64,000 nt of DNA. Origin: Hyphomonas neptunium ATCC 15444 (GTDB lineage Bacteria; Pseudomonadota; Alphaproteobacteria; Caulobacterales; Hyphomonadaceae). This document shows positions 10,928 to 22,974 of the stretch, one piece after another. Position 1 is the stretch's first letter. Each line of letters starts with the position of its first letter. Position numbers and translations under genes: made by a program. Below the pieces are notes generated by a model that did no database searches, was not told where the DNA came from, and saw only the letters and a program-made list of their open reading frames with translations. Where the stretch lies: assembly GCF_000013025.1 (NCBI RefSeq), contig NC_008358.1, forward strand, positions 2,170,001 to 2,234,000, in the 5' to 3' direction.

Positions 10928-10962
10928 GCAAATCATATAAACGAACTTTTATATGATTTGCA
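10927..10962. promoter_or_regulatory. Perfect 15-bp inverted repeat, probable ArsR autoregulatory operator
   Basis: The arms are TGCAAATCATATAAA (10927-10941) and TTTATATGATTTGCA (10948-10962), separated by six bases. The repeat is perfect over 15 bp and spans the start codon region of the ArsR-methyltransferase gene. ArsR proteins bind such AT-rich palindromes. Binding here would block expression of the whole metF-metH operon. Confidence 0.8.
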
Positions 10963-11110
10963 ATCCATCTTTGGAACCTGATCTAAACAGGTTCGTTATG
11001 TTTACTGATCAGTATGGCGGGAATGACACGTTTCTGACCAATTTTTGGGGCGTAAGGTTGAAGCTGGAAAACCACATGCCATCTGTCTTACGTTCGCATC
11101 AACCAAGTTA

Positions 11111-11126
11111 GTCATCACCCGTTGAC
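11111..11126 (+). promoter_or_regulatory. Upstream operator of the mlaA promoter
   Basis: GTCATCACCCGTTGAC is a near-palindrome. Its reverse complement matches the RND-pump site at 22357-22372 at 15 of 16 positions. Its right half runs into the predicted -35 box TTGACT. Confidence 0.75.
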
Positions 11127-11150
11127 TTATCGCGATCACCGAAGCATAGG
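11122..11150 (+). promoter_or_regulatory. Predicted sigma-70 promoter of mlaA-mlaC
   Basis: TTGACT at 11122-11127 and CATAGG at 11145-11150 are separated by 17 bases. The same arrangement (TTGACT, 17 bases, CATATG) occurs before the RND operon. The operators overlap both ends of this promoter. Confidence 0.6.
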
Positions 11151-11153
11151 CAG

Positions 11154-11169
11154 GTCAACAGCTGATGAC
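11154..11169 (+). promoter_or_regulatory. Downstream operator of the mlaA promoter
   Basis: GTCAACAGCTGATGAC is the exact reverse complement of the RND-pump operator at 22315-22330. With flanks, 20 bases (GGTCAACAGCTGATGACTTA) are identical. It would cover the transcription start. Its centre is 43 bp from the upstream site. Confidence 0.75.
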
Positions 11170-11225
11170 TTACTCCTCGCTAACCTGTCCCTGCCATATG
11201 TCGTCTCTTTAGGAACATTGACTGC

Positions 11226-11993
11226 ATGAAAACCGCCCTCCCCGGTGCCGCGCTGCTTGCGGTTGCACTTGCCGCCTGTGCCTCGACACCTGCTGCAGGA
11301 TCTACTGATATTGCTGACCCTTATGAAGGCTTCAATCGCAAGATGTACGCCTTTAACAACGGGTTGGATAAGTACGCCCTCGACCCGGCCGCAACCGCCT
11401 ACAAGACCGTAACGCCGGAATTCGCCCGTGACCGGGTTGGGGATTTCCTGTCCAACCTTCGCGGCCCGGTCGTCTTCGCAAACGACGTCCTCCAAGGTGA
11501 GGCCAAACGCGCCGGAACGACGTTCGCGCGGTTTGGAATCAACACGACTATTGGCGTTCTGGGCCTCTGGGACCCGGCATCGGAAATCGGCCTTGAGCGT
11601 CACCGGGAAGATTTCGGCCAGACGCTGGCCGTCTGGGGCGTAGAGAGCGGGCCTTATATCGTGATGCCGGTTCTTGGCCCCACGACGCCGCGCGACCTGC
11701 TGGGATTCGGTGTGGACCGCGCGATCGACCCTCTGACATGGGTTCAGCTCGATAATGATTCTGATTCTGATCTCGCCATCCGCGCCGGTCTCGGCATCGT
11801 TGGCGCCCTCAATGCCCGCGTGCGGCTGGAAGATCAGATCAACACGCTCAATGCCCAACCCGAACCCTATATTGCCCTTAGACGGATTTATTCATCTTCG
11901 CGTCAGGCGGAGATCCTTAATGGAAAGGTCGATGACGAGGCCGCCTATGATGATCTCCCCGATTTCGACGAATTTGAAGACTATGAAGAGTAA
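11226..11993 (+). CDS. mlaA: MlaA (VacJ) family phospholipid-transport lipoprotein
   Basis: MlaA is an outer-membrane lipoprotein that removes misplaced phospholipids from the outer leaflet and passes them to the Mla system. The 255-residue protein has a lipoprotein signal with lipobox LAAC (Cys19). The family core begins DPYEGFNRKMYAFNNGLDKY and includes FLSNLRGPVVFANDVLQG, ARFGINTTIGVLGLWDPA and GPYIVMPVLGPTTPRD. The acidic tail (DLPDFDEFEDYEE) is outside the conserved core. mlaC follows 31 bases downstream. The promoter carries two operators shared with the RND efflux operon at 22.3 kb. The Mla permease, ATPase and MlaD genes are not in this window. Confidence 0.95.
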   Translation: MKTALPGAALLAVALAACASTPAAGSTDIADPYEGFNRKMYAFNNGLDKYALDPAATAYKTVTPEFARDRVGDFLSNLRGPVVFANDVLQGEAKRAGTTFARFGINTTIGVLGLWDPASEIGLERHREDFGQTLAVWGVESGPYIVMPVLGPTTPRDLLGFGVDRAIDPLTWVQLDNDSDSDLAIRAGLGIVGALNARVRLEDQINTLNAQPEPYIALRRIYSSSRQAEILNGKVDDEAAYDDLPDFDEFEDYEE

Positions 11994-12024
11994 GTCCCGG
12001 CCGCCTGAGAAAAGGACTATGACC

Positions 12025-12651
12025 ATGAAACGTTTCATTCTCCCGGCTGTCATGGCCGCCACAATGACCGTAAGCGCCCTGCCCGCTTTTGCGGACGCCA
12101 AGACCGAAGCGTATGTTCAGAAGAATGCCAATGAAGTGCTTTCAACCCTGAACAACCCGGAGTTGTCGTCCAAGGAACGCACCGAGAAGTTCAGTGAGTA
12201 TATGAACGAGTTCGCCGATTTCGATGCGATCTCGAACTTCGTCATCGGTAAATACAGCCGCCGTTTCAGCAAGGACGAGCTGACCGCCTACCGCACCGCT
12301 TTCCGCAACTATGCGATGGCGGTCTATGAGAACGAGCTGGACGCCTATCGCGGTGAAGCCGTGACGGTGAAGAACTCGGTCGACCGCTCGGCCACCGATT
12401 CGATCGTCAACACGGTGATCAAGCGTAATGACGGCCGCGACATGGATGTGCGCTGGCGCGTTCTGGGCAAGGACGGCAGTTATCAGGTTGTCGATGTGGC
12501 CCTGAACCTGGACGGCAACCTGATCTGGCTGGCCATTGAACAGCGCGCCCAGTTCATCGCCCTGCTCGACCAGAACAATGGTTCGGCCGATGTGCTGATC
12601 AACAAGATCGACGGAATGACCGCCGACATGAAGTCCCGCAAGCGCAGCTGA
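12025..12651 (+). CDS. mlaC: MlaC family periplasmic phospholipid-binding protein
   Basis: MlaC shuttles phospholipids across the periplasm between MlaA at the outer membrane and the inner-membrane Mla ABC complex. The 208-residue protein starts with a cleavable signal peptide (to about ALPAFA, residue 23). Family features follow: DFDAISNFVIGKYSRRFSKDE, FRNYAMAVYENELDAYRGEAV and the C-terminal FAIEQ-like ...LAIEQRAQFIALLDQNNGS. I chose ATG 12025 because GAAAAGGA lies 8 bases upstream; ATG 12019 would be too close. It is co-transcribed with mlaA and followed by a strong terminator. A second, more divergent paralogue is at 52440. Confidence 0.93.
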   Translation: MKRFILPAVMAATMTVSALPAFADAKTEAYVQKNANEVLSTLNNPELSSKERTEKFSEYMNEFADFDAISNFVIGKYSRRFSKDELTAYRTAFRNYAMAVYENELDAYRGEAVTVKNSVDRSATDSIVNTVIKRNDGRDMDVRWRVLGKDGSYQVVDVALNLDGNLIWLAIEQRAQFIALLDQNNGSADVLINKIDGMTADMKSRKRS

Positions 12652-12678
12652 TCTGCTGCTCCTGCATCTGAGGCAAAG

Positions 12679-12707
12679 AAACGCCCTGACCGTTGGTCAG
12701 GGCGTTT
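12679..12707. terminator. Bidirectional rho-independent terminator after mlaC / abgT-like gene
   Basis: A 13-bp perfect stem (AAACGCCCTGACC / GGTCAGGGCGTTT) with a 3-base loop is flanked by A and T runs. It lies between two convergent genes and can serve both. Confidence 0.9.
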
Positions 12708-12711
12708 TCAT

Positions 12712-14340
12712 TCAGGGCGTCACTGCTGCCGGCGCGGCCGGCATATTGAATTCAATCGGCGCGCCGGGGCCAAGGTCGATACCCAGATAGAACCAGCCGA
12801 CCGTGAGGATCACGCCGGTAATCAGCAGCCAGACCGAATAGGGCAGCATCAGGGCGGTGAGGCTTCCCAGGCCGAAGTCCTTCACCCAGCGCTGGGCGAA
12901 GATCAGGATCAGCGGGAAATACACCATCAGCGGCGTGATGATGTTGGTGGCCCCATCGCCGACGCGGTAGGCGGCGGTGGCCCCTTCCGGCGAGACGCCG
13001 AGCAGCATCAGCATGGGTACCAGAACCGGCGCCATCAGCGCCCATTTGGCTGAGGCCGAGCCGACGAAGAGGTTCAGGAGCCCTGTGAAAATCACCATCA
13101 GGCCAAGCACCACAGGCAGCGGCAGGCCGCTGGCCTCGATGGTATTGGCGCCGTGAACGGCGGTGATGAAGCCGAGGTTTGACCAGCCGAACATCGCCAC
13201 GAAATGGGCCGCCGCAAAGGCGAGGACGAGGTAATAGCCCATGTCCTTCATGGCTTCGGCCATCATGGCGACGAGATCGCGGTGGTTCTTCACCGTTCCG
13301 GCAGCTGCGCCATACGCCCAGCCGGCAAACAGGAACAGCAGGAAAAACGCGGCAACCAGCGACTGGTAAAGCGGCGCGAGCGTTGCGTGGATCGAGCAGG
13401 CGCCTGATTCGATGGTGCCGGGCGCGCAGGCCTCTTCGCTGATCAGCGGCGTGCCGGGGCCGAAGGTCATGAAGGCCCAGAGGGCAATGACGGCGAGGCT
13501 GGCGAGCCCAGCATTGCGGATGCCCTTTTTCTGGGCCGGTTCCAGCGGTTTGTCGTCTTCGCCGAAATCCTTCGCCTGCTGCTCGGAGGGCACCCATTTG
13601 CCCAGGCGCGGCTCGACGATCTTGTCGGTGACGAACCAGATCAGCGGCAGGTAGATCACCATCAGGACGCTGATGAAGAACCAGTTTCCGGCAATGTTGA
13701 CGTTCAGCCCCTCAACGAGACCGGAGTTATCCACAGCTTGTTGGGTAATGCCGAAGAGAAGCGCGTCGAGCTGGCCGGGGGTGATATTGGCGGAAAACCC
13801 GCCCGAAACCCCGGCAAAAGCCGCCGCAATCCCGGCAATCGGATGGCGACCGGCGGCGGCGAAGAGAATGCCTGCCAAGGGGATCAGCACGACATAGCCA
13901 GCGTCCGAGGCGTGGTTGGACAGCATGGCGATAAGCGCGACGACGGGCGTGAGCAACGCGGTTGGGGCGCCGCGAACGGCGGCGCGCATGCCGCTGGCAA
14001 AGAGGCCGGAGCGTTCGGCCACCCCGGCGCCGAGCATCACGATCAGCACATAGCCGAGGGGATGGAAGTGGGTGAAGGTCTTGGGCATGTCGACCCAGAG
14101 CCGCTGGATATTGGCCGCCGACAGAAGGCTGTCAGCCCGCACGATCATCGTCGACCCGTCGGGGTTGAGCTGGGTGGGATGGGGCGCGGAAACACCCAGG
14201 ACGGCGCAGAGAATCGAGATGAGGACGAGGCCGCCGATCAGGTAGAAGAAGAGAAAGACCGGATCAGGCAGTTTGTTGCCGGTTCGCTCGACAAATCCGA
14301 GAAAACCTTTCTGTGCCGGCGCCGTATCGTTCACACTCAT
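12712..14340 (-). CDS. AbgT family transporter (p-aminobenzoyl-glutamate type)
   Basis: A 542-residue inner-membrane protein with about 11-13 hydrophobic segments. AbgT proteins import p-aminobenzoyl-glutamate or export sulfonamide-type antimetabolites using the proton gradient. Recognisable family segments are FVERTGNKLPDPVFLFFYLIG at the N-terminus, ANIQRLWVDMPKTFTHFHPLGYVLIVMLGAGVAERSG near residue 95, NHASDAGYVVLIPLAG near residue 150 and YRVGDGATNIITPLMVYFP near residue 460. I start at ATG 14340, which has GGGAG 8 bases upstream; the open frame extends further to 14565 without family similarity. It is a single gene ending at the shared terminator. The substrate cannot be decided from sequence. 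Confidence 0.92.
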   Translation of the reverse strand: MSVNDTAPAQKGFLGFVERTGNKLPDPVFLFFYLIGGLVLISILCAVLGVSAPHPTQLNPDGSTMIVRADSLLSAANIQRLWVDMPKTFTHFHPLGYVLIVMLGAGVAERSGLFASGMRAAVRGAPTALLTPVVALIAMLSNHASDAGYVVLIPLAGILFAAAGRHPIAGIAAAFAGVSGGFSANITPGQLDALLFGITQQAVDNSGLVEGLNVNIAGNWFFISVLMVIYLPLIWFVTDKIVEPRLGKWVPSEQQAKDFGEDDKPLEPAQKKGIRNAGLASLAVIALWAFMTFGPGTPLISEEACAPGTIESGACSIHATLAPLYQSLVAAFFLLFLFAGWAYGAAAGTVKNHRDLVAMMAEAMKDMGYYLVLAFAAAHFVAMFGWSNLGFITAVHGANTIEASGLPLPVVLGLMVIFTGLLNLFVGSASAKWALMAPVLVPMLMLLGVSPEGATAAYRVGDGATNIITPLMVYFPLILIFAQRWVKDFGLGSLTALMLPYSVWLLITGVILTVGWFYLGIDLGPGAPIEFNMPAAPAAVTP

Positions 14341-14511
14341 TCGAACTCTCCCAGTTTCCCAGGTCGAACTGTGCGGATCGGCGGCCCGAAGGCAAGGCCT
14401 TTTGTGCCAGAAGTGGCGCAGGACGGGCCAAACAGGCGCCGGGCAGCGCGGGCGGCCGGAACGCGCGGGGGCGCGGCCGGTGAGGGTGTTTATGCGGAGA
14501 GGTGCCCCACC
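14341..14511. other. Intergenic DNA between the AbgT gene and the IS110 element
   Basis: Together with the IS left end this stretch exceeds 300 bases without a gene. It should contain the AbgT promoter, but I recognise no clear -35/-10 pair or operator. At 14505-14515 it holds CCCCACCCTTG, which is repeated inside the IS left end at 14560-14570. Confidence 0.5.
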
Positions 14512-14513
14512 CT

Positions 14514-15614
<1,101 letters not shown>

Positions 15615-15633
15615 CCCGAACAACAGTTGCTAT

Positions 15634-15657
15634 CCCTCCCCATAGTCATGGGGAGGG
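15634..15657. repeat. REP-like palindrome
   Basis: CCCTCCCCAT and ATGGGGAGGG form a perfect 10-bp stem with a 4-base loop just after the IS110 element. Palindromes of this kind typically occur in many intergenic copies. More hairpins follow at 15779 and 16223. Confidence 0.6.
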
Positions 15658-15716
15658 GACCTGTTGTGCGTGGGGTGAGGTAAGGGTTTCGGCTTGGAGC
15701 GTGGGGTTGCTTTAGG

Positions 15717-16112
15717 CTAGGAGGTGTCGGGAATTGTGCTTGCCGCTCCCCCCTCCGACCCTTCGGAGCCTTCTCGGGGAAATCGCAATGCGATTTCTGA
15801 TCCCTCGAAGCCCCGCAAGCAGGGGAGGATACCAGCGCAGGATTCCTCCAGAAAAGCTCCAACCATGTTTGGCGGGACCGCGCTTTGCCAGACCGGATCG
15901 TCCCAGCTGGCCTTTAGCGATTCCGGTTTGCGATAGGCGCGCCAGTGGTCGCCTACCTGGACGATTTGGACCTGGCCCCATCGGGTGACGGAGATGAGGA
16001 GGGTACGGAGTTCCTTGTCCTGACGTTTGAAGATCCAGCGCAGCTGTAGCCAGAGGTATGGCCAGAACACTGGCGATACGTGGGCATAGAGGCGGGCGAT
16101 CTGGGGTGTCAT
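15717..16112 (-). CDS. Hypothetical protein whose C-terminus is formed by repeat DNA
   Basis: I do not recognise a family. The frame gives 131 residues from ATG 16112. The first 85 look protein-like: MTPQIARLYAHVSPVFWPYLW, then a basic-aromatic stretch and TRWGQVQIVQVGDHWRAY. The last 45 residues (LRGFEGSEIALRFPREGSEGSEGG and onward) are translated from GC-rich palindromic repeat DNA, so the natural stop may have been lost when the repeats arrived. There is no good Shine-Dalgarno sequence. The frame extends upstream to 16220 through another palindrome. It could be a small DUF protein or a decayed gene. Confidence 0.4.
   Translation of the reverse strand: MTPQIARLYAHVSPVFWPYLWLQLRWIFKRQDKELRTLLISVTRWGQVQIVQVGDHWRAYRKPESLKASWDDPVWQSAVPPNMVGAFLEESCAGILPCLRGFEGSEIALRFPREGSEGSEGGAASTIPDTS
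15779..15797. repeat. Short palindrome inside the repeat-rich region
   Basis: GAAATCGCA and TGCGATTTC are perfect 9-bp arms around a single central A. It lies within the 3' part of the hypothetical gene. Confidence 0.5.
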
Positions 16113-16297
16113 GGGAGGGAGTATACCTCCGCCTGCGGAGGGGGTGGATGAGATTTCTGGAAATCGCGCAGGTGCTGCAGGTTCAGCGGGAATATTGGTG
16201 GATAGGGCGGAGGCCCTCACCTCCCATCGCTTTGCGATGGGCCCCTCCTCTCCCAGAGGGAGAGAGGTAAGACGCGTTGTGCTTGGGTGTCAGGTTT
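16113..16297. repeat. Repeat-rich intergenic DNA with two palindromes
   Basis: CCTCCGC/GCGGAGG (16126-16141) and CCCATCGC/GCGATGGG (16223-16241, loop TTT) are perfect hairpins. The second is followed by CTCTCCCAGAGGGAGAG. No gene was recognised here. Confidence 0.5.
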
Positions 16298-16364
16298 GGA
16301 CAAACTTGGACAAAACGGGACACTTCAGGACAAACTCGGACACAAAAAGACACGGCGCGGGACA
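16298..16364 (+). repeat. Array 1 of GGACA repeats in 10-bp phase
   Basis: GGACA (once AGACA) begins at 16298, 16308, 16318, 16328, 16338 and 16348, exactly one helical turn apart. A seventh copy at 16360 is out of phase by two. The five bases between copies vary. Similar arrays occur at 26676 and 52255. The array lies just beyond the 3' end of the RND operon. Confidence 0.85.
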
Positions 16365-16410
16365 GCTTTCGCCGTTCCGCGCCGTGCTGGGCCACTGGTT
16401 GGAGCCAGAG

Positions 16411-17814
16411 CTAGTCAGCCCAGCCGCCACCCATGGCCATGAAGACGTTGATCTCGGCGCTGGCCTTTGCCGCTTCGGATTGGGCGAGCGCGGTGCGGGT
16501 TTCGATGAAGGTGCGCTCGGCGTCGAGGACGTTGAGGAAGTTGTCTGACCCGATCCGGTAACGGGTGCGGGCGAGTTCGGCGGCTTCTTCCGACGCAGCG
16601 GCGGAAGCTTCCAGGGCGGCGTAGCGCTCTTTCTCGGCCGCGTAGTTGGTGAGGGCGATTTCGGCCTCTTCCAGGGCGGTGAGGAAGGTCTCGTCGAAAT
16701 TGGCGAGGGCGATGTCGACGCCGGCTTCGGCCGCAGCGAGGCGGGCGCGGGCGGCAGCGACGTTCGGGAAGTTCCAGCTGATCAGCGGGCCGAGGCCGAA
16801 GCTGAGGCCGTCTTCGCTGAACATGTCGCCTGCCCCGCCCAGCGAGGCGGTGGAGACCGAGCCGCCGATGCTGACGGAAGGGTAGAGGTTTGCCGTGGCG
16901 ATACCGACGCGGGCGGCGGCGCTGGCAAGCTGAAGTTCCGCCTGGCGCACATCCGGACGGCGCGCAAGGAGGGTTGCGCTTTCCCCGGTGGGGAGGAGCG
17001 AGACGAGCTGCGGCATGCTTTCGCACGCGGGGACCGCTTGGCTCATCTCTGCGGGGGTCTGGCCAGTCAAGCGGGCCAGGCGGAACAAGGCGGCGTCACG
17101 GGCGGCGCGCACGGACGGGATGTCGGCTTCGGCGCGGCGGAGCGCGGCCTCGGCCTGCACGACATCCAGACGGATGCCGCGGCCCGCATCGAACAGGGTG
17201 CGGGTGAGATTGAGCGTCTCTTCCTGCAAGCCGTAATTCGACTGGGCGGTTTCAAGCTGGATATTGCCGGCGCAATAATCGATCCAGGCGCGGGCGGTTT
17301 CACCCGCGACCATCAGGGACGCGCCGCGATAGGCGGCCTCGGCAGCGGCAGCGTCCTGGCGGGCAGCTTCGACGCTGGAGCTGACGCGGCCGAAGATATC
17401 GACCTCATAGGCCATCTCGAAGCCAAGCGAATAGACGTCGGTTTCAACATCGCCCGGCGCGAAGCTCGGATCACGGACATATTGGCCGCCGGCGGTGGCG
17501 GTGGTGGATGGCAGCAGCGCGGAGCGGGCCTCCGAAAGCCCTGCACGAACCTGCTCAAGATTTGCCGCGGCGCCGGCAAGCGAGCGGTTATTGGTGAGCG
17601 CCTGCGTGACGAGGCCGTCGAGGGCCTCGCTCTGATAGAGGCGCCACCAGTCTTTGGGCACAGGCGTGGCGGCGACATTGGCCGCTTCTGCCGAGAGCAA
17701 GGCGCCTTCAACGCGCGAAGCAACGGAGCTGTCCGGGGCGGCGGGCGCGGTGGCGCAGGCGCTGAGGGCGAGAGCGGCAATGGCCGTGAGCGTGGGGAGT
17801 TTGAGATGTATCAT
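16411..17814 (-). CDS. RND efflux outer-membrane channel lipoprotein (NodT/OprM family)
   Basis: Outer-membrane channel of a tripartite drug efflux pump. The 467-residue protein has a lipoprotein signal with lipobox LSAC (Cys19). Two OEP repeats follow: DWWRLYQSEALDGLVTQALTNNRSLAGAAANLEQVRAGL in the first, and RRPDVRQAELQLASAAARVGIATANLYPSVSIGGS in the second. It ends with YRIGSDNFLNVLDAERTFIETRTALAQSEAAKASAEINVFMAMGGGW, typical of the family. Its ATG overlaps the permease stop (ATGA), so it is translationally coupled. It is the last gene of the operon adaptor-permease-channel. Confidence 0.95.
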   Translation of the reverse strand: MIHLKLPTLTAIAALALSACATAPAAPDSSVASRVEGALLSAEAANVAATPVPKDWWRLYQSEALDGLVTQALTNNRSLAGAAANLEQVRAGLSEARSALLPSTTATAGGQYVRDPSFAPGDVETDVYSLGFEMAYEVDIFGRVSSSVEAARQDAAAAEAAYRGASLMVAGETARAWIDYCAGNIQLETAQSNYGLQEETLNLTRTLFDAGRGIRLDVVQAEAALRRAEADIPSVRAARDAALFRLARLTGQTPAEMSQAVPACESMPQLVSLLPTGESATLLARRPDVRQAELQLASAAARVGIATANLYPSVSIGGSVSTASLGGAGDMFSEDGLSFGLGPLISWNFPNVAAARARLAAAEAGVDIALANFDETFLTALEEAEIALTNYAAEKERYAALEASAAASEEAAELARTRYRIGSDNFLNVLDAERTFIETRTALAQSEAAKASAEINVFMAMGGGWAD

Positions 17815-20800
17815 GCCTGGCCTCCTTCGACCGGCGTGTGGGTGTCGTCTTTACGGCTGGCACCGGGAAGCCGCTTCGAGATCATCCGTCCAATGACATA
17901 GAAAGCCGGCGTGAAGATGAGACCGAAAATGGTCACCCCGATCATGCCCGAGAACACGGTGATACCGATGGACTGGCGCATCTCTGCCCCTGCCCCGGTT
18001 GCGAACGCCAATGGCATCACACCGAAGATGAAGGCGAAGGATGTCATCAAGATCGGACGAAGGCGCAGGCGGGAGCCTTCAACAGCCGCCTCATGCGGCG
18101 TCAGTCCGCGTTGTTCTTCTGCCTGCTTGGCAAACTCGACCAGGAGGATCGCGTTCTTGGCCGCAAGAGCGACAAGGACGATGAGGCCGACCTGGGCGAG
18201 GATGTCGTTCGCCATACCTGCGATGTTGATGCCGATGGTGGCCGCGAGGATACACATCGGGACGATGAAGATAACGGCGAAGGGCAGCGTGAAGGCTTCA
18301 TACTGCGCCGCCAGGACGAGGAAGACAAAGATAACCGCCATCACGAAGATCATCGTGGAGGAGTTGCCGACGGCTTTCTCCTGATAGGCAATTTCGGTCC
18401 ATTCATAGCTGATGCCATCGGGGAGCACCTGCGCGGCCATCTCTTCCATCGCGGCGAGCGAGGCACCGGTGGAGACACCGGCCGCTGTCTGGCCGCTGAG
18501 CTCGATGGCGGGGAAGTTGTTATGGCGGACCATGCGGACCGGGCCGGAGCCGTCAACGATCTGGGCAACCGCCGAGATCGGCACCATCTGACCGGTGGAC
18601 GAGCGGACCTGGAACTGGCCGATACTGCCGGCAGTTTCACGGAACGGAGCATCTGCCTGGGCAGTGACGCGGAATGTCCGCCCAAGGAAGTTGAAGTCGT
18701 TCACATAGGTGGAGCCGAGATTGGTTCCGAGCGTCGAATAGACATCCGCCGGTTCTACACCGAGGAGCTGGGCGCGGTCGCGGTCCACCTCTACCCGCAC
18801 GGTGGGCGAGTCTGTGTTGAAGGTGGTGTAGACGCTGGTGACGCGGGGGTCCTGGCCAGCAGCGTCCATCATGGCGAAGGTTGCCTGCTGGAGCGCGGCT
18901 GTACCGGCGCCGGAGCGATCCTGGATCATCATCTTGAAGCCGCCGCCCTGGCCCAGGCCCTGCACCGCCGGAGGGGCGATGATGAAGGCGTTGCCTTCGG
19001 GCAGGCTGGACATGAACTGGCCAGTGAGACGCTGCGAGATCGCGGCGGCGGAGAGGTTCTCATCGCCTTTGCGTTCGTCAAAGTCAGCCAGGCGGATGAA
19101 CATCGTGCCGGCGTTGGAGGCGGACGAGAAGCTGGAGCCGTCCATGCCGACCATTGCGGCGACGCCCTGGATGCCTTCAGTGGCCTGAAGTTCCTCGACG
19201 ATGCGCAGCATGACGGTGTTGGTGCGCTCCAGCGAGGCGCCCGCGGGGAGCTGGACGACGCCGATGAGGAAGCCCTGGTCCTGCTCCGGGATGAAGCCCG
19301 TAGGCGTGGCCGACAGGCGCCAGCCGGTGGTGGCCAGGAGGCCGGCATAGACGATCATCACGATCACCAGCATACGGACCAGTTTGGAGACGACCGTGCC
19401 GTAGGTGTTGGACAGCCAGTCGAAGCCCTTGTTGAAGCCGTTGCTGGCGATGCGCAGCGGGGCAAGGATCGGGCTGCCCTTCTTGTGGCTGTGTTCTTCG
19501 TGCGGCTTCAGCAGCAGCGCGCAGAGAGCCGGAGACAGGGTGAGCGAGACCAGCAGCGAGATGACAGCAGCCGACGCGATGGCGACGGCGAACTGTTCAT
19601 AGAAGATGCCGGGAATGCCGCCCATGAAGAGTGTGGGCACGAACACCGAAACCAGCACGAGGTTCATCGCGATGAGCGCGCCGCCGACCTCGTTCATGGA
19701 GGTGATGGCCGCCTGCATGGGCGTTTTGCCCTCGCGGATGGAGCGTTCGACATTCTCCACCACGACGATCGCGTCATCCACCACGATGCCGACTGCAAGC
19801 ACGAGGGCGAACAGGGACAGCGAGTTGATGGAATAGCCGAGCGCAAGCTGGACGGCGAAGACGCCGATGATCGAGACCGGGATAGCGAGGATCGGGATGA
19901 GGGCGGCGCGCCAGGTCTGCAGAAAGATCAGGATGACGATCATCACGAGGAAGACCGCTTCGATGAGGGCATGCTCCACCGCAGACACCGAGGCCTGGAC
20001 GAATTCGGTGGGATTATAAGGGATCATGTATTCGAGGCCCTCAGGGAATTCCTGGGCGGCCAGTTCCATTTCAGCCAGCACTTGCTCTGCCGCTTCGAGG
20101 GCGTTGGAGCCGGGCAGCTGGGAGACGGCGAGGCCGATGCCGGGCTGGCCATCGAAATAGGAGCGCATGAGGTAATTTTCGGCGCCGATGTCGACGCGGG
20201 CGACATCGCGCAGGCGGACGACGGAGCCATCCTCGCCGCGGCGGATGACGACATCGCCGAACTCTTCAGGTTCGATCAGGCGGCCGCTGACCTGGACGGG
20301 GATCTGGAATGGCGGGGCGCCAGCCTCAGCAAAGGGGGGCTGGCCCAGTGTGCCGCCCGCAGCCTGGATGTTCTGGGCGCGCAGGGCCGCGACGATGTCA
20401 GCCGAGGTGAGGTTGAGGGCTGCGGCGCGTTCGGGATTGATCCAGACGCGCATGGAATAGTTGCCGCCGCCGAACACTTCAATGCCGCCGACGCCATTGA
20501 TGCGCAGCAGGCGGTCCTTGATGTTGGAGGCTGCGTAGTTGGCGACGTAATCCTTGTCGAGCTGGCCGCCCGGCGAGGTGATCGCGACGAGCAGGAGGAA
20601 GCCGGAGGCCTGCTGGTTGACCGACACGCCGGTCTGGCGGACCTGCTCTGGCAGGCGCGGCTCGGCGCGGGAGACGCGGTTCTGGACCTGCACCTGGGCG
20701 GTGTCGAGATCGGTGCCCGGCTCGAAGGTGATCGTCAGCATGACGACGCCATCGGCGGTGGAGGAGGATGTCATGTAGATCATCCCTTCCACGCCGTTGA

Positions 20801-21011
20801 TTTCCTGTTCCAGCGGCGCGGCGACCTGGTTGGCTACGTCCTCGGACGAAGCGCCGGGGTAAGAGGCCGTGACGACAACAGTGGGCGGGGCAATTTCAGG
20901 GTATTGAGCCAGCGGCAGCTGCGGGAACGCGAAGGCGCCCAGCAGTGTGATCACGACAGAAATCACGGCGGCAAAGATGGGCCGCCGGATGAAAAAGTGG
21001 GAAAGGCGCAT
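17811..21011 (-). CDS. RND efflux permease, HAE1 family (AcrB/MexB type)
   Basis: Proton-driven inner-membrane pump that exports hydrophobic and amphiphilic compounds. The 1066-residue length is slightly above the usual 1030-1050. It begins MRLSHFFIRRPIFAAVISVVI and has two large periplasmic loops and 12 membrane segments. The proton-relay Asp pair is seen in AVGIVVDDAIVVVENVERSI near residue 405. Other family segments are VAAPLEQEINGVEGMIYMTS, PTGFIPEQDQGFLIGVVQLP and the NILAQVGLIVLVALAAKNAILLVEFA-type TM region (ANDILAQVGL). It lies 64 bases after the adaptor gene. The substrate range is unknown. Confidence 0.97.
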   Translation of the reverse strand: MRLSHFFIRRPIFAAVISVVITLLGAFAFPQLPLAQYPEIAPPTVVVTASYPGASSEDVANQVAAPLEQEINGVEGMIYMTSSSTADGVVMLTITFEPGTDLDTAQVQVQNRVSRAEPRLPEQVRQTGVSVNQQASGFLLLVAITSPGGQLDKDYVANYAASNIKDRLLRINGVGGIEVFGGGNYSMRVWINPERAAALNLTSADIVAALRAQNIQAAGGTLGQPPFAEAGAPPFQIPVQVSGRLIEPEEFGDVVIRRGEDGSVVRLRDVARVDIGAENYLMRSYFDGQPGIGLAVSQLPGSNALEAAEQVLAEMELAAQEFPEGLEYMIPYNPTEFVQASVSAVEHALIEAVFLVMIVILIFLQTWRAALIPILAIPVSIIGVFAVQLALGYSINSLSLFALVLAVGIVVDDAIVVVENVERSIREGKTPMQAAITSMNEVGGALIAMNLVLVSVFVPTLFMGGIPGIFYEQFAVAIASAAVISLLVSLTLSPALCALLLKPHEEHSHKKGSPILAPLRIASNGFNKGFDWLSNTYGTVVSKLVRMLVIVMIVYAGLLATTGWRLSATPTGFIPEQDQGFLIGVVQLPAGASLERTNTVMLRIVEELQATEGIQGVAAMVGMDGSSFSSASNAGTMFIRLADFDERKGDENLSAAAISQRLTGQFMSSLPEGNAFIIAPPAVQGLGQGGGFKMMIQDRSGAGTAALQQATFAMMDAAGQDPRVTSVYTTFNTDSPTVRVEVDRDRAQLLGVEPADVYSTLGTNLGSTYVNDFNFLGRTFRVTAQADAPFRETAGSIGQFQVRSSTGQMVPISAVAQIVDGSGPVRMVRHNNFPAIELSGQTAAGVSTGASLAAMEEMAAQVLPDGISYEWTEIAYQEKAVGNSSTMIFVMAVIFVFLVLAAQYEAFTLPFAVIFIVPMCILAATIGINIAGMANDILAQVGLIVLVALAAKNAILLVEFAKQAEEQRGLTPHEAAVEGSRLRLRPILMTSFAFIFGVMPLAFATGAGAEMRQSIGITVFSGMIGVTIFGLIFTPAFYVIGRMISKRLPGASRKDDTHTPVEGGQA

Positions 21012-21075
21012 GGGAGAATGGGTCTCTGGGAGGAAGAGATTGGGTGGAGGCCAGGCGGGCGCTGGCCGCCGCGTG

Positions 21076-22266
21076 TCAATTCACGCGGCGGGCAGACATG
21101 GCTGGACGGCTGAGGACCTGTGCCGGATCTTCAGGCGCGGTTTCGTAATCAAGCTCGACCGCAACGGGGTTGACCACCGCGCCGGGACGGGCGCGCAGGA
21201 GGCCGTTGACCACGACCCGGTCATTCGCCTCAAGGCCGCCGCTGATGACCTGCATGTTGCCACTGAGCGGGCCGAGCTGGACCGGGGCGGCCTCAACTTC
21301 GTTACGCTCGTTGACGAGGAACAGCGTGCGGCGGGTGCCGTCTGTCTGCACCGCCGTCTGGGGCACCATAAGGGCTGAATACGGGGCCGAGCCGTTGATG
21401 CGGACTTCACCGGTCATGCCGGGGCGGATGAGGCCGTCTTCATTGTCGATCAGCGCACGGACACGGATCGAACCGGTCGTGTCGCCCATGCGGTTGTCGG
21501 CGAAGACCACCTCGCCCGGACGGGTGAAGGAGGTTTCGTCCTGAAGGCGGGCTTCAGCTTTGACGGCGCCGTCTGACTTCTCGGCGCGGGCATAACGCAG
21601 ATAGTCGGCCTCGGAGACGTTGAAGGTGAAGTAGAGTTCTTCATCGCGCACCAGCGTGGTGAGGATGTCGCCCGAAGAGTTGCCGCCCGCGACGAGGTTG
21701 CCGGGGTCTACGTTACGGGCAGAGACCCGGCCGTCGATGGGGGCAGTGACACGGGTGAAGCTGAGATCGAGCCGGGCGGCGTCGACACCGGCCTCGGCCG
21801 CAGCGACGGCAGCTTCGGCGCTGGCGAGCGCTGTGCGGTTCTGCTCGAGTTCTTCGACCGAGACAGCGCCGGATTCAGCAAGCTTTGTGGACCGTTCAAG
21901 ATCGGACTGAGCCTGGACGCTCTGGGCTTTCGCCTGGGCGAGCTGGGCTTCGGCCTGGGCGAGCGCGGCGCGGAAGGGGCGATCATCGAGCGTGAAGAGG
22001 AGTTCGCCCGCCTTTACACGGGCGCCGTCTTCAAAGTTGACCGACTTCACATAGCCGCTGACGCGGGCACGTACTTCTACGCGTTCCACGGACTCGAAAC
22101 GGCCGGTATAGCCGTTCCAGTCAGCCACCTGGGAGGAGAGTGGGACTGCGACATCGACCTGCGGCGGGGGAGGACCGCCCTGCTCTTGAGCCTGCGGCGC
22201 ACTGCATGCCCCGACGACAAGAGCCGTTGCCAGAACGGAAACGGTTGCAAAATTGCGCGAACGCAT
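21076..22266 (-). CDS. RND efflux periplasmic adaptor (membrane fusion protein)
   Basis: Links the inner-membrane permease to the outer-membrane channel. The 396-residue protein has a lipoprotein signal (lipobox VGAC, Cys21). A beta-barrel/lipoyl half follows: GYVKSVNFEDGARVKAGELLFTLDDRPF near residue 75. The helical hairpin (about 105-165) is rich in AQAEAQLAQAKAQ-type heptads. The second lipoyl half is LSFTRVTAPIDGRVSARNVDPGNLVAGG. It is the first gene of the pump operon. Its promoter, on the minus strand, carries two operators that likely bind the divergently encoded TetR repressor. Confidence 0.96.
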   Translation of the reverse strand: MRSRNFATVSVLATALVVGACSAPQAQEQGGPPPPQVDVAVPLSSQVADWNGYTGRFESVERVEVRARVSGYVKSVNFEDGARVKAGELLFTLDDRPFRAALAQAEAQLAQAKAQSVQAQSDLERSTKLAESGAVSVEELEQNRTALASAEAAVAAAEAGVDAARLDLSFTRVTAPIDGRVSARNVDPGNLVAGGNSSGDILTTLVRDEELYFTFNVSEADYLRYARAEKSDGAVKAEARLQDETSFTRPGEVVFADNRMGDTTGSIRVRALIDNEDGLIRPGMTGEVRINGSAPYSALMVPQTAVQTDGTRRTLFLVNERNEVEAAPVQLGPLSGNMQVISGGLEANDRVVVNGLLRARPGAVVNPVAVELDYETAPEDPAQVLSRPAMSARRVN

Positions 22267-22314
22267 TCATTTTTCCTTCATAAACAAGGCGAAACGGTGG
22301 AATAACGCCTTTAA

Positions 22315-22330
22315 GTCATCAGCTGTTGAC
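22315..22330 (-). promoter_or_regulatory. Downstream operator of the RND operon promoter
   Basis: GTCATCAGCTGTTGAC (plus strand) is palindromic at 7 of 8 paired positions. It is the exact reverse complement of the mlaA operator at 11154-11169. It would cover the start point of the RND transcript. Confidence 0.8.
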
Positions 22331-22332
22331 CG

Positions 22333-22361
22333 CATATGACGTTGGGACAGGCCTAAGTCAA
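22333..22361 (-). promoter_or_regulatory. Predicted sigma-70 promoter of the RND efflux operon
   Basis: On the minus strand, TTGACT (22361-22356) and CATATG (22338-22333) are 17 bases apart. The arrangement mirrors the mlaA promoter, with operators at both ends. Confidence 0.65.
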
Positions 22362-22372
22362 CAGGTGATGAC
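22357..22372 (-). promoter_or_regulatory. Upstream operator of the RND operon promoter
   Basis: GTCAACAGGTGATGAC matches the reverse complement of the site at 11111-11126 at 15 of 16 positions and that of the neighbouring site 22315-22330 at 15 of 16. The two RND sites are 42 bp apart centre to centre. This site also lies 30 bases before the TetR start, so it may serve autoregulation. Confidence 0.8.
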
Positions 22373-22401: not shown

Positions 22402-22974
22402 ATGAAATGTAATCAACCGATCCGCCGCAGAGATGCCGCAGCGACCAAAACCGCCATTCTCTGTGCCGCGCGAACCCTGTTTGCCCGCGACAGTTACGAG
22501 AATGTCGGCATACGGGAGATTGCGTCTCTGGCGGGCGCCGATGCGGCGCTGGTTTCACGCTATTTCGGCTCCAAGGAGGAGCTGTTTTCCGAAGTGCTCG
22601 ACCATGGGGAACGCGGGGTTGACCTGCTGGGCACCGAGGTCTCGGGCCTGCCTGAGCGGGTGGGCGAGATCATGACGGACCCGGAGGATGAGGGTAAATC
22701 GCTCGAAGACATCCTGATCATCCTGCACTCGGCGAACTCGCCGGTGGCCGGGCCACTGGTGCGCGACTCGATCACCAAGCGGTTTCATGCCCCGTTTGCC
22801 GAAGTCATTGGCGGGGAGCATGCGATGATGCGCTCCCAGATGTTCGGGGCGATGCTGCTGGGCCTTTCAATCAGCCAGCAGATCAGCGGCGATTTTGCCG
22901 ACACGCCGGAAATGCGCGAGAAGGTGAAAGCCCGGATTGCAGACATCATCGTAAAGGTCATCGCGCCGCTCTGA
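22402..22974 (+). CDS. TetR/AcrR family repressor, probable regulator of the RND pump and mlaAC
   Basis: A 190-residue one-component regulator. The N-terminal helix-turn-helix reads RRDAAATKTAILCAARTLFARDSYENVGIREIASLAGADAALVSRYFGSKEELFSEVL in segments typical of TetR. The C-terminal part would bind a ligand, probably a pump substrate. It is divergent from the pump operon, with two palindromic operators between them. The same operator pair lies before mlaA, so its regulon probably includes both loci. The start ATG 22402 is preceded by a weak Shine-Dalgarno sequence. Ligand identity is unknown. Confidence 0.9.
   Translation: MKCNQPIRRRDAAATKTAILCAARTLFARDSYENVGIREIASLAGADAALVSRYFGSKEELFSEVLDHGERGVDLLGTEVSGLPERVGEIMTDPEDEGKSLEDILIILHSANSPVAGPLVRDSITKRFHAPFAEVIGGEHAMMRSQMFGAMLLGLSISQQISGDFADTPEMREKVKARIADIIVKVIAPL

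Follow-up and report, generated by a model that had tools for sequence, protein, structure and literature searches.

In the 64,000-nucleotide stretch of Hyphomonas neptunium ATCC 15444 DNA analysed here (NC_008358.1, positions 2,170,001 to 2,234,000; hereafter the window, with coordinates counted from its first letter), the promoter of mlaAC, which encodes outer-membrane phospholipid transport proteins, and the promoter of an RND efflux pump operon carry a matching two-operator arrangement. In all likelihood the TetR-family protein encoded beside the pump represses both pump and mlaAC through these sites, a conclusion drawn from comparisons among genomes. The shared operators lie at promoter-like elements, co-occur with tetR among relatives, and have decayed selectively in one relative, G030. 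A sequence-only reading of the window had proposed that the efflux pump and mlaAC form one regulon; co-occurrence of TetR with the operator pairs, relatives in which the two loci are far apart (G096) or no pump ortholog was found (G030), and a second genus (g22) with its own mlaA operator argue for that proposal, and the link to mlaAC is real and conserved, and probably functional as a regulon.

In the proposed mechanism, two repressor dimers would sit on the same side of the helix, one at the -35 box and the other at the transcription start point, and would repress by binding there. A ligand, probably a membrane-active compound exported by the pump, would free the repressor from DNA, whereupon pump, repressor and mlaAC would rise together, with compound export and restoration of outer-membrane lipid asymmetry jointly induced.

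Paired operators at the two promoters

The near-palindromes claimed at both promoters were found, two upstream of mlaA and two in the gap that separates tetR from the RND pump operon:

11111..11126, + strand: upstream mlaA operator, GTCATCACCCGTTGAC, whose end forms the predicted -35 box TTGACT (11122-11127)
11154..11169, + strand: downstream mlaA operator, GTCAACAGCTGATGAC, directly 3' of the predicted -10 box CATAGG (11145-11150)
22315..22330, - strand: pump operator, downstream with respect to pump transcription, GTCATCAGCTGTTGAC, predicted to lie over the pump start point
22357..22372, - strand: pump operator, upstream with respect to pump transcription, GTCAACAGGTGATGAC, with the predicted pump -35 box at 22356-22361 on the - strand

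The layout agreed in every respect with the sequence-only reading. The downstream copies of mlaA and pump share 20 identical bases (GGTCAACAGCTGATGACTTA), the upstream copies are alike at 15 of 16, centre spacing is 43 bp at mlaA and 42 bp at the pump, and both promoters keep the same order relative to transcription. Across Hyphomonas the spacing is 42-44 bp, or about four helical turns. The downstream mlaA operator is predicted to overlie the transcription start point, and tetR is predicted to be autoregulated through the operator at 22357..22372, which lies 29 bp ahead of its start codon.

Scanning the whole genome (3,705,021 bp) revealed the exact pattern at the four mlaA and pump places, two per promoter, and nowhere else, while the reversed pattern gave no match. 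Allowing one mismatch yielded 26 further places, compared with 15 matches for the reversed control; since palindromy doubles some of these counts, neither an excess nor its absence follows from the two numbers. The 22 of these 26 that were scored reached 15.2 bits at best, compared with 22.9-25.4 for the four operators, and every one of the 22 overlaps some open reading frame of 210 nt or more, which is a weak test. Within the window, 23 matches were counted at up to two mismatches, a marginal figure given a mean of 15.0 and 5 of 100 shuffles as high. Chance palindromes were rejected on the whole-genome exact count (4 against 0) and the operator scores.

The genes served by these promoters, and the predicted regulator, are as follows:

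11226..11993, + strand: mlaA, outer-membrane phospholipid-transport lipoprotein (Pfam MlaA, 2.5e-69)
12025..12651, + strand: mlaC, periplasmic phospholipid carrier (Pfam MlaC, 6.5e-29)
16411..17814, - strand: outer-membrane efflux channel (Pfam channel match), NodT type by NCBIfam
17811..21011, - strand: RND efflux permease (Pfam ACR_tran; NCBIfam RND_permease_1 above its cut-off)
21076..22266, - strand: membrane fusion protein (periplasmic adaptor), encoded by the pump operon's first gene (Pfam, NCBIfam)
22402..22974, + strand: TetR-family repressor (Pfam TetR_N, 5e-13; TetR_C_16, 9.1e-8), predicted binder of the four operators

The TetR gene is divergent from the RND operon, and the palindromic pump operators lie inside the intergenic region between them. 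The recognition helix of the Hyphomonas TetR reads DAALVSRYFGSKEELF; the nearest PDB chains are the putative regulators 2np3 and 2guh, and no NCBIfam equivalog matched the protein at or above its cut-off. Two mlaE genes lie elsewhere in the genome, with no exact operator near either. An AbgT-family transporter gene adjoins mlaC in the clade that has the mlaA operators (window 12712-14340; L197 9234-10844), its best NCBIfam match being YdaH (antimetabolite efflux), below that model's cut-off. Between it and the pump operon the window has an IS110-family transposase gene (14688-15614), which was not found at the G030 locus.

Operators and the TetR gene among relatives

Two samples of genomes were searched for the operator pair and for the TetR protein. 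In the first (61 genomes: the window's, 36 of the genus and 24 of the order), a strict pair pattern was present in six genomes, the same six that encode a TetR ortholog at 73-100% identity. The second comprised 105 family genomes, 42 of them of the genus, and used a looser pair pattern, with TetR called at an E value of 1e-25 or better; here the pair was found in 11 genomes, seven of them Hyphomonas, and the reversed control in none of the 105. Within Hyphomonas the seven pair-bearing genomes are exactly the TetR-bearing ones, the other 35 being without any pair. Four more family genomes encode TetR without a full pair (G108, G114, G121 and G126); in three of these a single perfect operator adjoins tetR, in G108 no operator does.

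The check suggested in the sequence-only reading, for the same pairs before both mlaA and the pump in relatives, came out in its favour, with mlaA pairs confined to one Hyphomonas clade. Forty of the 42 genus members have a detected mlaA gene (the exceptions are G001 and G029), and it is preceded by the pair in all six TetR-positive genomes among them. No pair was found anywhere in the 34 TetR-negative Hyphomonas genomes with a detected mlaA; in the 29 of their mlaA upstream regions that were read singly, the best match had two mismatches at the ten fixed positions.

Neighbourhood or shared transcription might produce such an association, an explanation rejected on the evidence of G096, in which the pump/tetR locus and mlaAC lie about 799 kb apart with a pair at each. 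A further alternative is that a different TetR-family protein, with a half-site shared by chance, binds the mlaA operators, and that the two promoters do not form one regulon. The genome does have six other places matching the window TetR (seven matches in total), and among the matches listed palindromes of the operator form also occur beside other TetR genes in distant bacteria. Against this, the mlaA pair follows the window TetR ortholog across Hyphomonas, as the single site mostly does in g22, and the genome holds no further exact sites. When four of the other TetR places were examined, three gave a recognition-helix pattern, in each case unlike LVSRYFGSKEEL, and the fourth gave no reading. 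We regard binding of the mlaA operators by another TetR protein as very unlikely.

Regulation by the pump's own TetR also received support from G030. In this genome, mlaAC, the AbgT gene and tetR adjoin each other with no pump between them. No pump ortholog was found in the genome (90% complete): its best RND match is 33% identical and resembles a copy present in the other five genomes (33% in four, a 34% fragment in the fifth). G030 thus appears to have lost the pump and kept tetR and both mlaA operators. Its tetR-side operator (the counterpart of 22357..22372) is unchanged (0/16 bases), and it is the other pump operator, corresponding to 22315..22330, that has decayed; its TetR has an intact 190-codon frame and the recognition helix is identical. 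The AbgT gene starts about 260 bp away from the tetR operator in this genome and might have joined the regulon there.

The mlaA pair might also be no more than a passive relic, a piece of promoter that was copied and then inherited in one clade without regulatory use. Restriction of the pair to a single clade fits such an origin, as does the variation of central bases in the mlaA sites, which is not seen in Hyphomonas pump sites. However, 28 of 32 operator columns (14 of 16 in each operator) are identical across all six mlaA promoters. In the spacer plus downstream DNA, which has turned over, 14 of 79 columns are invariant, and in the upstream DNA 17 of 71; a binomial figure for this contrast ignores relatedness. 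In G030, moreover, the pump-side operator has changed at 5 of 16 bases while its two mlaA operators show 0/16 and 1/16 differences relative to the window. A second genus also carries an operator on its native promoter, and we give the relic explanation very little weight.

That second genus, g22, was represented by 15 genomes, of which 13 had a recognizable mlaA: six TetR-positive and seven TetR-negative, the latter including G116 and G120, whose TetR matches (32-34% identity, no adjacent operator) were counted as different proteins. A perfect single operator lies over the native mlaA -35 box in five of the six TetR-positive genomes (not G121) and in one of the seven TetR-negative ones (G120), an association with a one-sided Fisher p of 0.025, uncorrected for kinship. 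TetR-negative G127 has an mlaA operator with one mismatch. Next to tetR, each of the six TetR-positive genomes carries one or two perfect operators; five also have an adaptor and permease in the same stretch, and the recognition helix of the six reads DVSLVSRYFG(S/G)KE(E/D)LF.

Beyond these groups, a pattern scan of named genomes showed tetR with an operator pair and a related adaptor or permease at no fewer than 28 loci of other alphaproteobacteria, including members of Brevundimonas, Phenylobacterium, Maricaulis, Glycocaulis, Marinicaulis and Ponticaulis. A locus was counted when a TetR 35-66% identical to the window's was flanked by a pair and by an adaptor or permease at more than 40% identity. 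Pair spacing was 40-44 bp in all 28 loci listed, though 38-50 bp was allowed. The pump/tetR operators, being more widely spread than those of mlaA, would be the older part of the system. At least 120 stretches contain the pattern; of the 120 listed, 52 match none of the 14 query proteins, and many more have solely a TetR gene beside the pair. As a separate observation, the paired GTCANC-N4-GNTGAC layout also stands beside other TetR genes with no matching pump (L083, L090, L099, L101, L107, L127, L142 and others), in Actinobacteria and other Alphaproteobacteria, and is perhaps a general two-operator design of the TetR subgroup discussed here.

Several results weigh against a shared regulon. 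The six mlaA-pair genomes form one clade in the MlaA tree (support 98/97), so the co-occurrence in Hyphomonas is in essence one evolutionary event and not six. TetR-positive relatives without an mlaA site exist: the Ponticaulis-like G106 and G108, Glycocaulis G130 and Marinicaulis G132. Within g22, G121 encodes TetR without an operator at mlaA, and in G120 the operator is present, yet no TetR of matching kind was found there. Constraint on TetR in G030 may be weaker, because nonsynonymous to synonymous changes stand at 17:18 on its branch compared with 7:25 on the window branch. Finally, of the promoter boxes proposed earlier, the sequences themselves are present, TTGACT-17-CATAGG at mlaA (+ strand) and TTGACT-17-CATATG at the pump (- strand), but no E. 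coli-type sigma-70 promoter scored above the scan threshold at either site, so the -35/-10 assignment is a prediction; the CATAnG -10 at mlaA is, moreover, not kept in G030 (CACAGG) or G022. Also in the family, no operator precedes mlaA in g19 (seven genomes, two TetR-positive). The TetR-positive L148, L170, L160 and L175 and the Brevundimonas-type G037, G041 and G057 gave no MlaA match and fall outside the mlaA-site comparison.

Origin of the operator segment before mlaA

In one Hyphomonas clade the operators lie in a segment of DNA between a native promoter-like element and the mlaA start codon. The relevant features in the window are:

11057..11085, + strand: native mlaA promoter-like element in its displaced position (-169 from the ATG), GTTGAA-N17-CATCTG
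11086..11200 (approximate, edges inexact), + strand: clade-specific extra DNA with the operator pair, about 105-127 bp across the clade

Starts of mlaA in relatives were placed by tblastn and the extra DNA by fixed patterns. The native element, GTTGNN-N17/18-CATNTN, stands at -56 to -61 from the mlaA start in 23 of 25 non-clade Hyphomonas loci (not G015 or G027), with agreement from 4 of 4 further relatives, and at -162 to -184 in the clade. Between it and a palindrome lying towards the ArsR gene, the distance is 122 bp in all five clade genomes that were measured; outside the clade, where 13 of 25 loci show both features, it is 110-126 bp in seven relatives and 76-88 bp in six. These distances put the extra DNA downstream of the native element and ahead of the start codon, a position best supported by comparison with the seven relatives at 110-126 bp.

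Other palindromes were noted in the same region. In 11 of the 25 non-clade loci, all without a TetR ortholog (L029, L030, L033, L034, L035, L036, L038, L040, L042, L044 and L046), a different one, about ATGTAATT-N2-AATTACAT, lies directly upstream of the native -35 box, at position -85 or -91 relative to the start of mlaA; another regulator may act on mlaA there. An AT-rich palindrome, ATATAAACnnnnnTTTATATG (window 10935-10955), lies between the ArsR-methyltransferase gene and mlaA; a strict pattern finds it upstream of mlaA in 18 of the 30 Hyphomonas regions. It is located at the start of the divergent ArsR/S-adenosylmethionine-methyltransferase fusion gene and is probably that gene's own operator.

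A pump promoter is the probable source of the mlaA segment. The mlaA and pump promoters agree in their operators and the order of these, in the TTA flanks and in spacing, with 17-19 of 19 bases matching per extended site in the six genomes, and both TTA flanks occur in only one of the 28 other pump loci listed (Ponticaulis L164). The spacers between operators lend weak support. When each mlaA spacer was compared with that of its own pump, 11, 24, 305 and 75 of 1000 shuffles were as good or better with the TTA included (window, G034, G022 and G008, respectively), and 76, 150, 764 and 428 without it; for the G030 mlaA spacer and the window pump, the counts were 32 and 188 of 1000. Comparison with the L164 pump gave 1, 1, 139, 0 and 29 shuffles with the TTA and 6, 8, 471, 23 and 163 without it (window, G034, G022, G008 and G030), support that is likewise weak.

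Transcription of mlaA may have moved to the operator segment. Alternatively, TetR could act on mlaA as a roadblock to elongation from the displaced native promoter, rather than by occluding a new one. The native element is still recognizable in all six clade genomes, and the roadblock also draws on the absence of a canonical new promoter at the mlaA operators and of CATAnG in G030 and G022. The last base of the element bears on the question from both sides: it is an A in 22 of 23 non-clade loci and in 4 of 4 further relatives, but not in any of the six clade genomes, which speaks against the roadblock. In g22, however, 11 of 13 genomes have C and 2 have G at this position, so loss of the A need not inactivate the element. 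Occlusion of a new promoter is favoured by TTGACT-17-CATAnG being common to the window pump and mlaA, and by CATATG at both promoters in G096. On balance we consider the roadblock unlikely, and occlusion at the operator segment the better reading.

Known systems and significance

AcrR and NalD are local TetR repressors of adjacent RND pumps, like the Hyphomonas candidate, which they matched by the helix-turn-helix only. We know of no mlaA target for repressors of this type. A closer parallel in gene arrangement is TipR of Caulobacter crescentus, a TetR-family repressor of AcrAB-NodT with four chromatin immunoprecipitation targets, including djlA (PMC10754441). In both systems a TetR-family gene is transcribed divergently from an RND operon that includes a NodT-type channel, and further targets, known or predicted, are few. 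However, mlaA is absent from the four TipR targets given in that report, and the TipR motif quoted there, WTGaGWMtGAWC, differs from the Hyphomonas motif GTCAWCNNNNGWTGAC when compared by eye; on this operator difference, identity with the TipR system was rejected.

Regulators joining efflux to Mla are known from enterics: MarA activates mlaFEDCB together with efflux genes in E. coli (PMC5684230), and RamA activates mlaFEDCB in Klebsiella pneumoniae (PMC11792452). In both, one drug-responsive regulator ties multidrug resistance to Mla lipid transport, as is predicted here. MarA and RamA, as described there, are AraC-type activators acting on mlaFEDCB, whereas the Hyphomonas candidate is a predicted TetR-type repressor of mlaAC with exact sites at the pump and mlaAC only, and its operators are paired within an extra promoter segment, unlike those arrangements. 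A search of the open literature for TetR proteins acting on mla genes returned the MarA and RamA cases, and no TetR case was recognized. Among the entries listed, nothing usable turned up on paired operators or on expression in Hyphomonas. Recruitment of mlaAC by a local TetR efflux repressor thus looks new in the searchable literature, although joint control of efflux and Mla by one regulator is already known in enterics.

The evidence leans somewhat towards the wiring of Mla to an efflux repressor having arisen at least twice by different routes, as a two-operator segment in Hyphomonas and, in a different genus of the same family, as a lone operator that overlies the native promoter, and towards the repressor having outlived the pump in one lineage to become, in effect, a dedicated mlaAC regulator. 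The proposal makes direct predictions for Hyphomonas, a cultivable genus not known to cause disease, and pump-less G030 is a natural experiment on a regulator changing jobs. If the regulon is as proposed, export of membrane-active compounds and repair of lipid asymmetry would have been worth inducing jointly, repeatedly, through the pump's own repressor and with two promoter designs.

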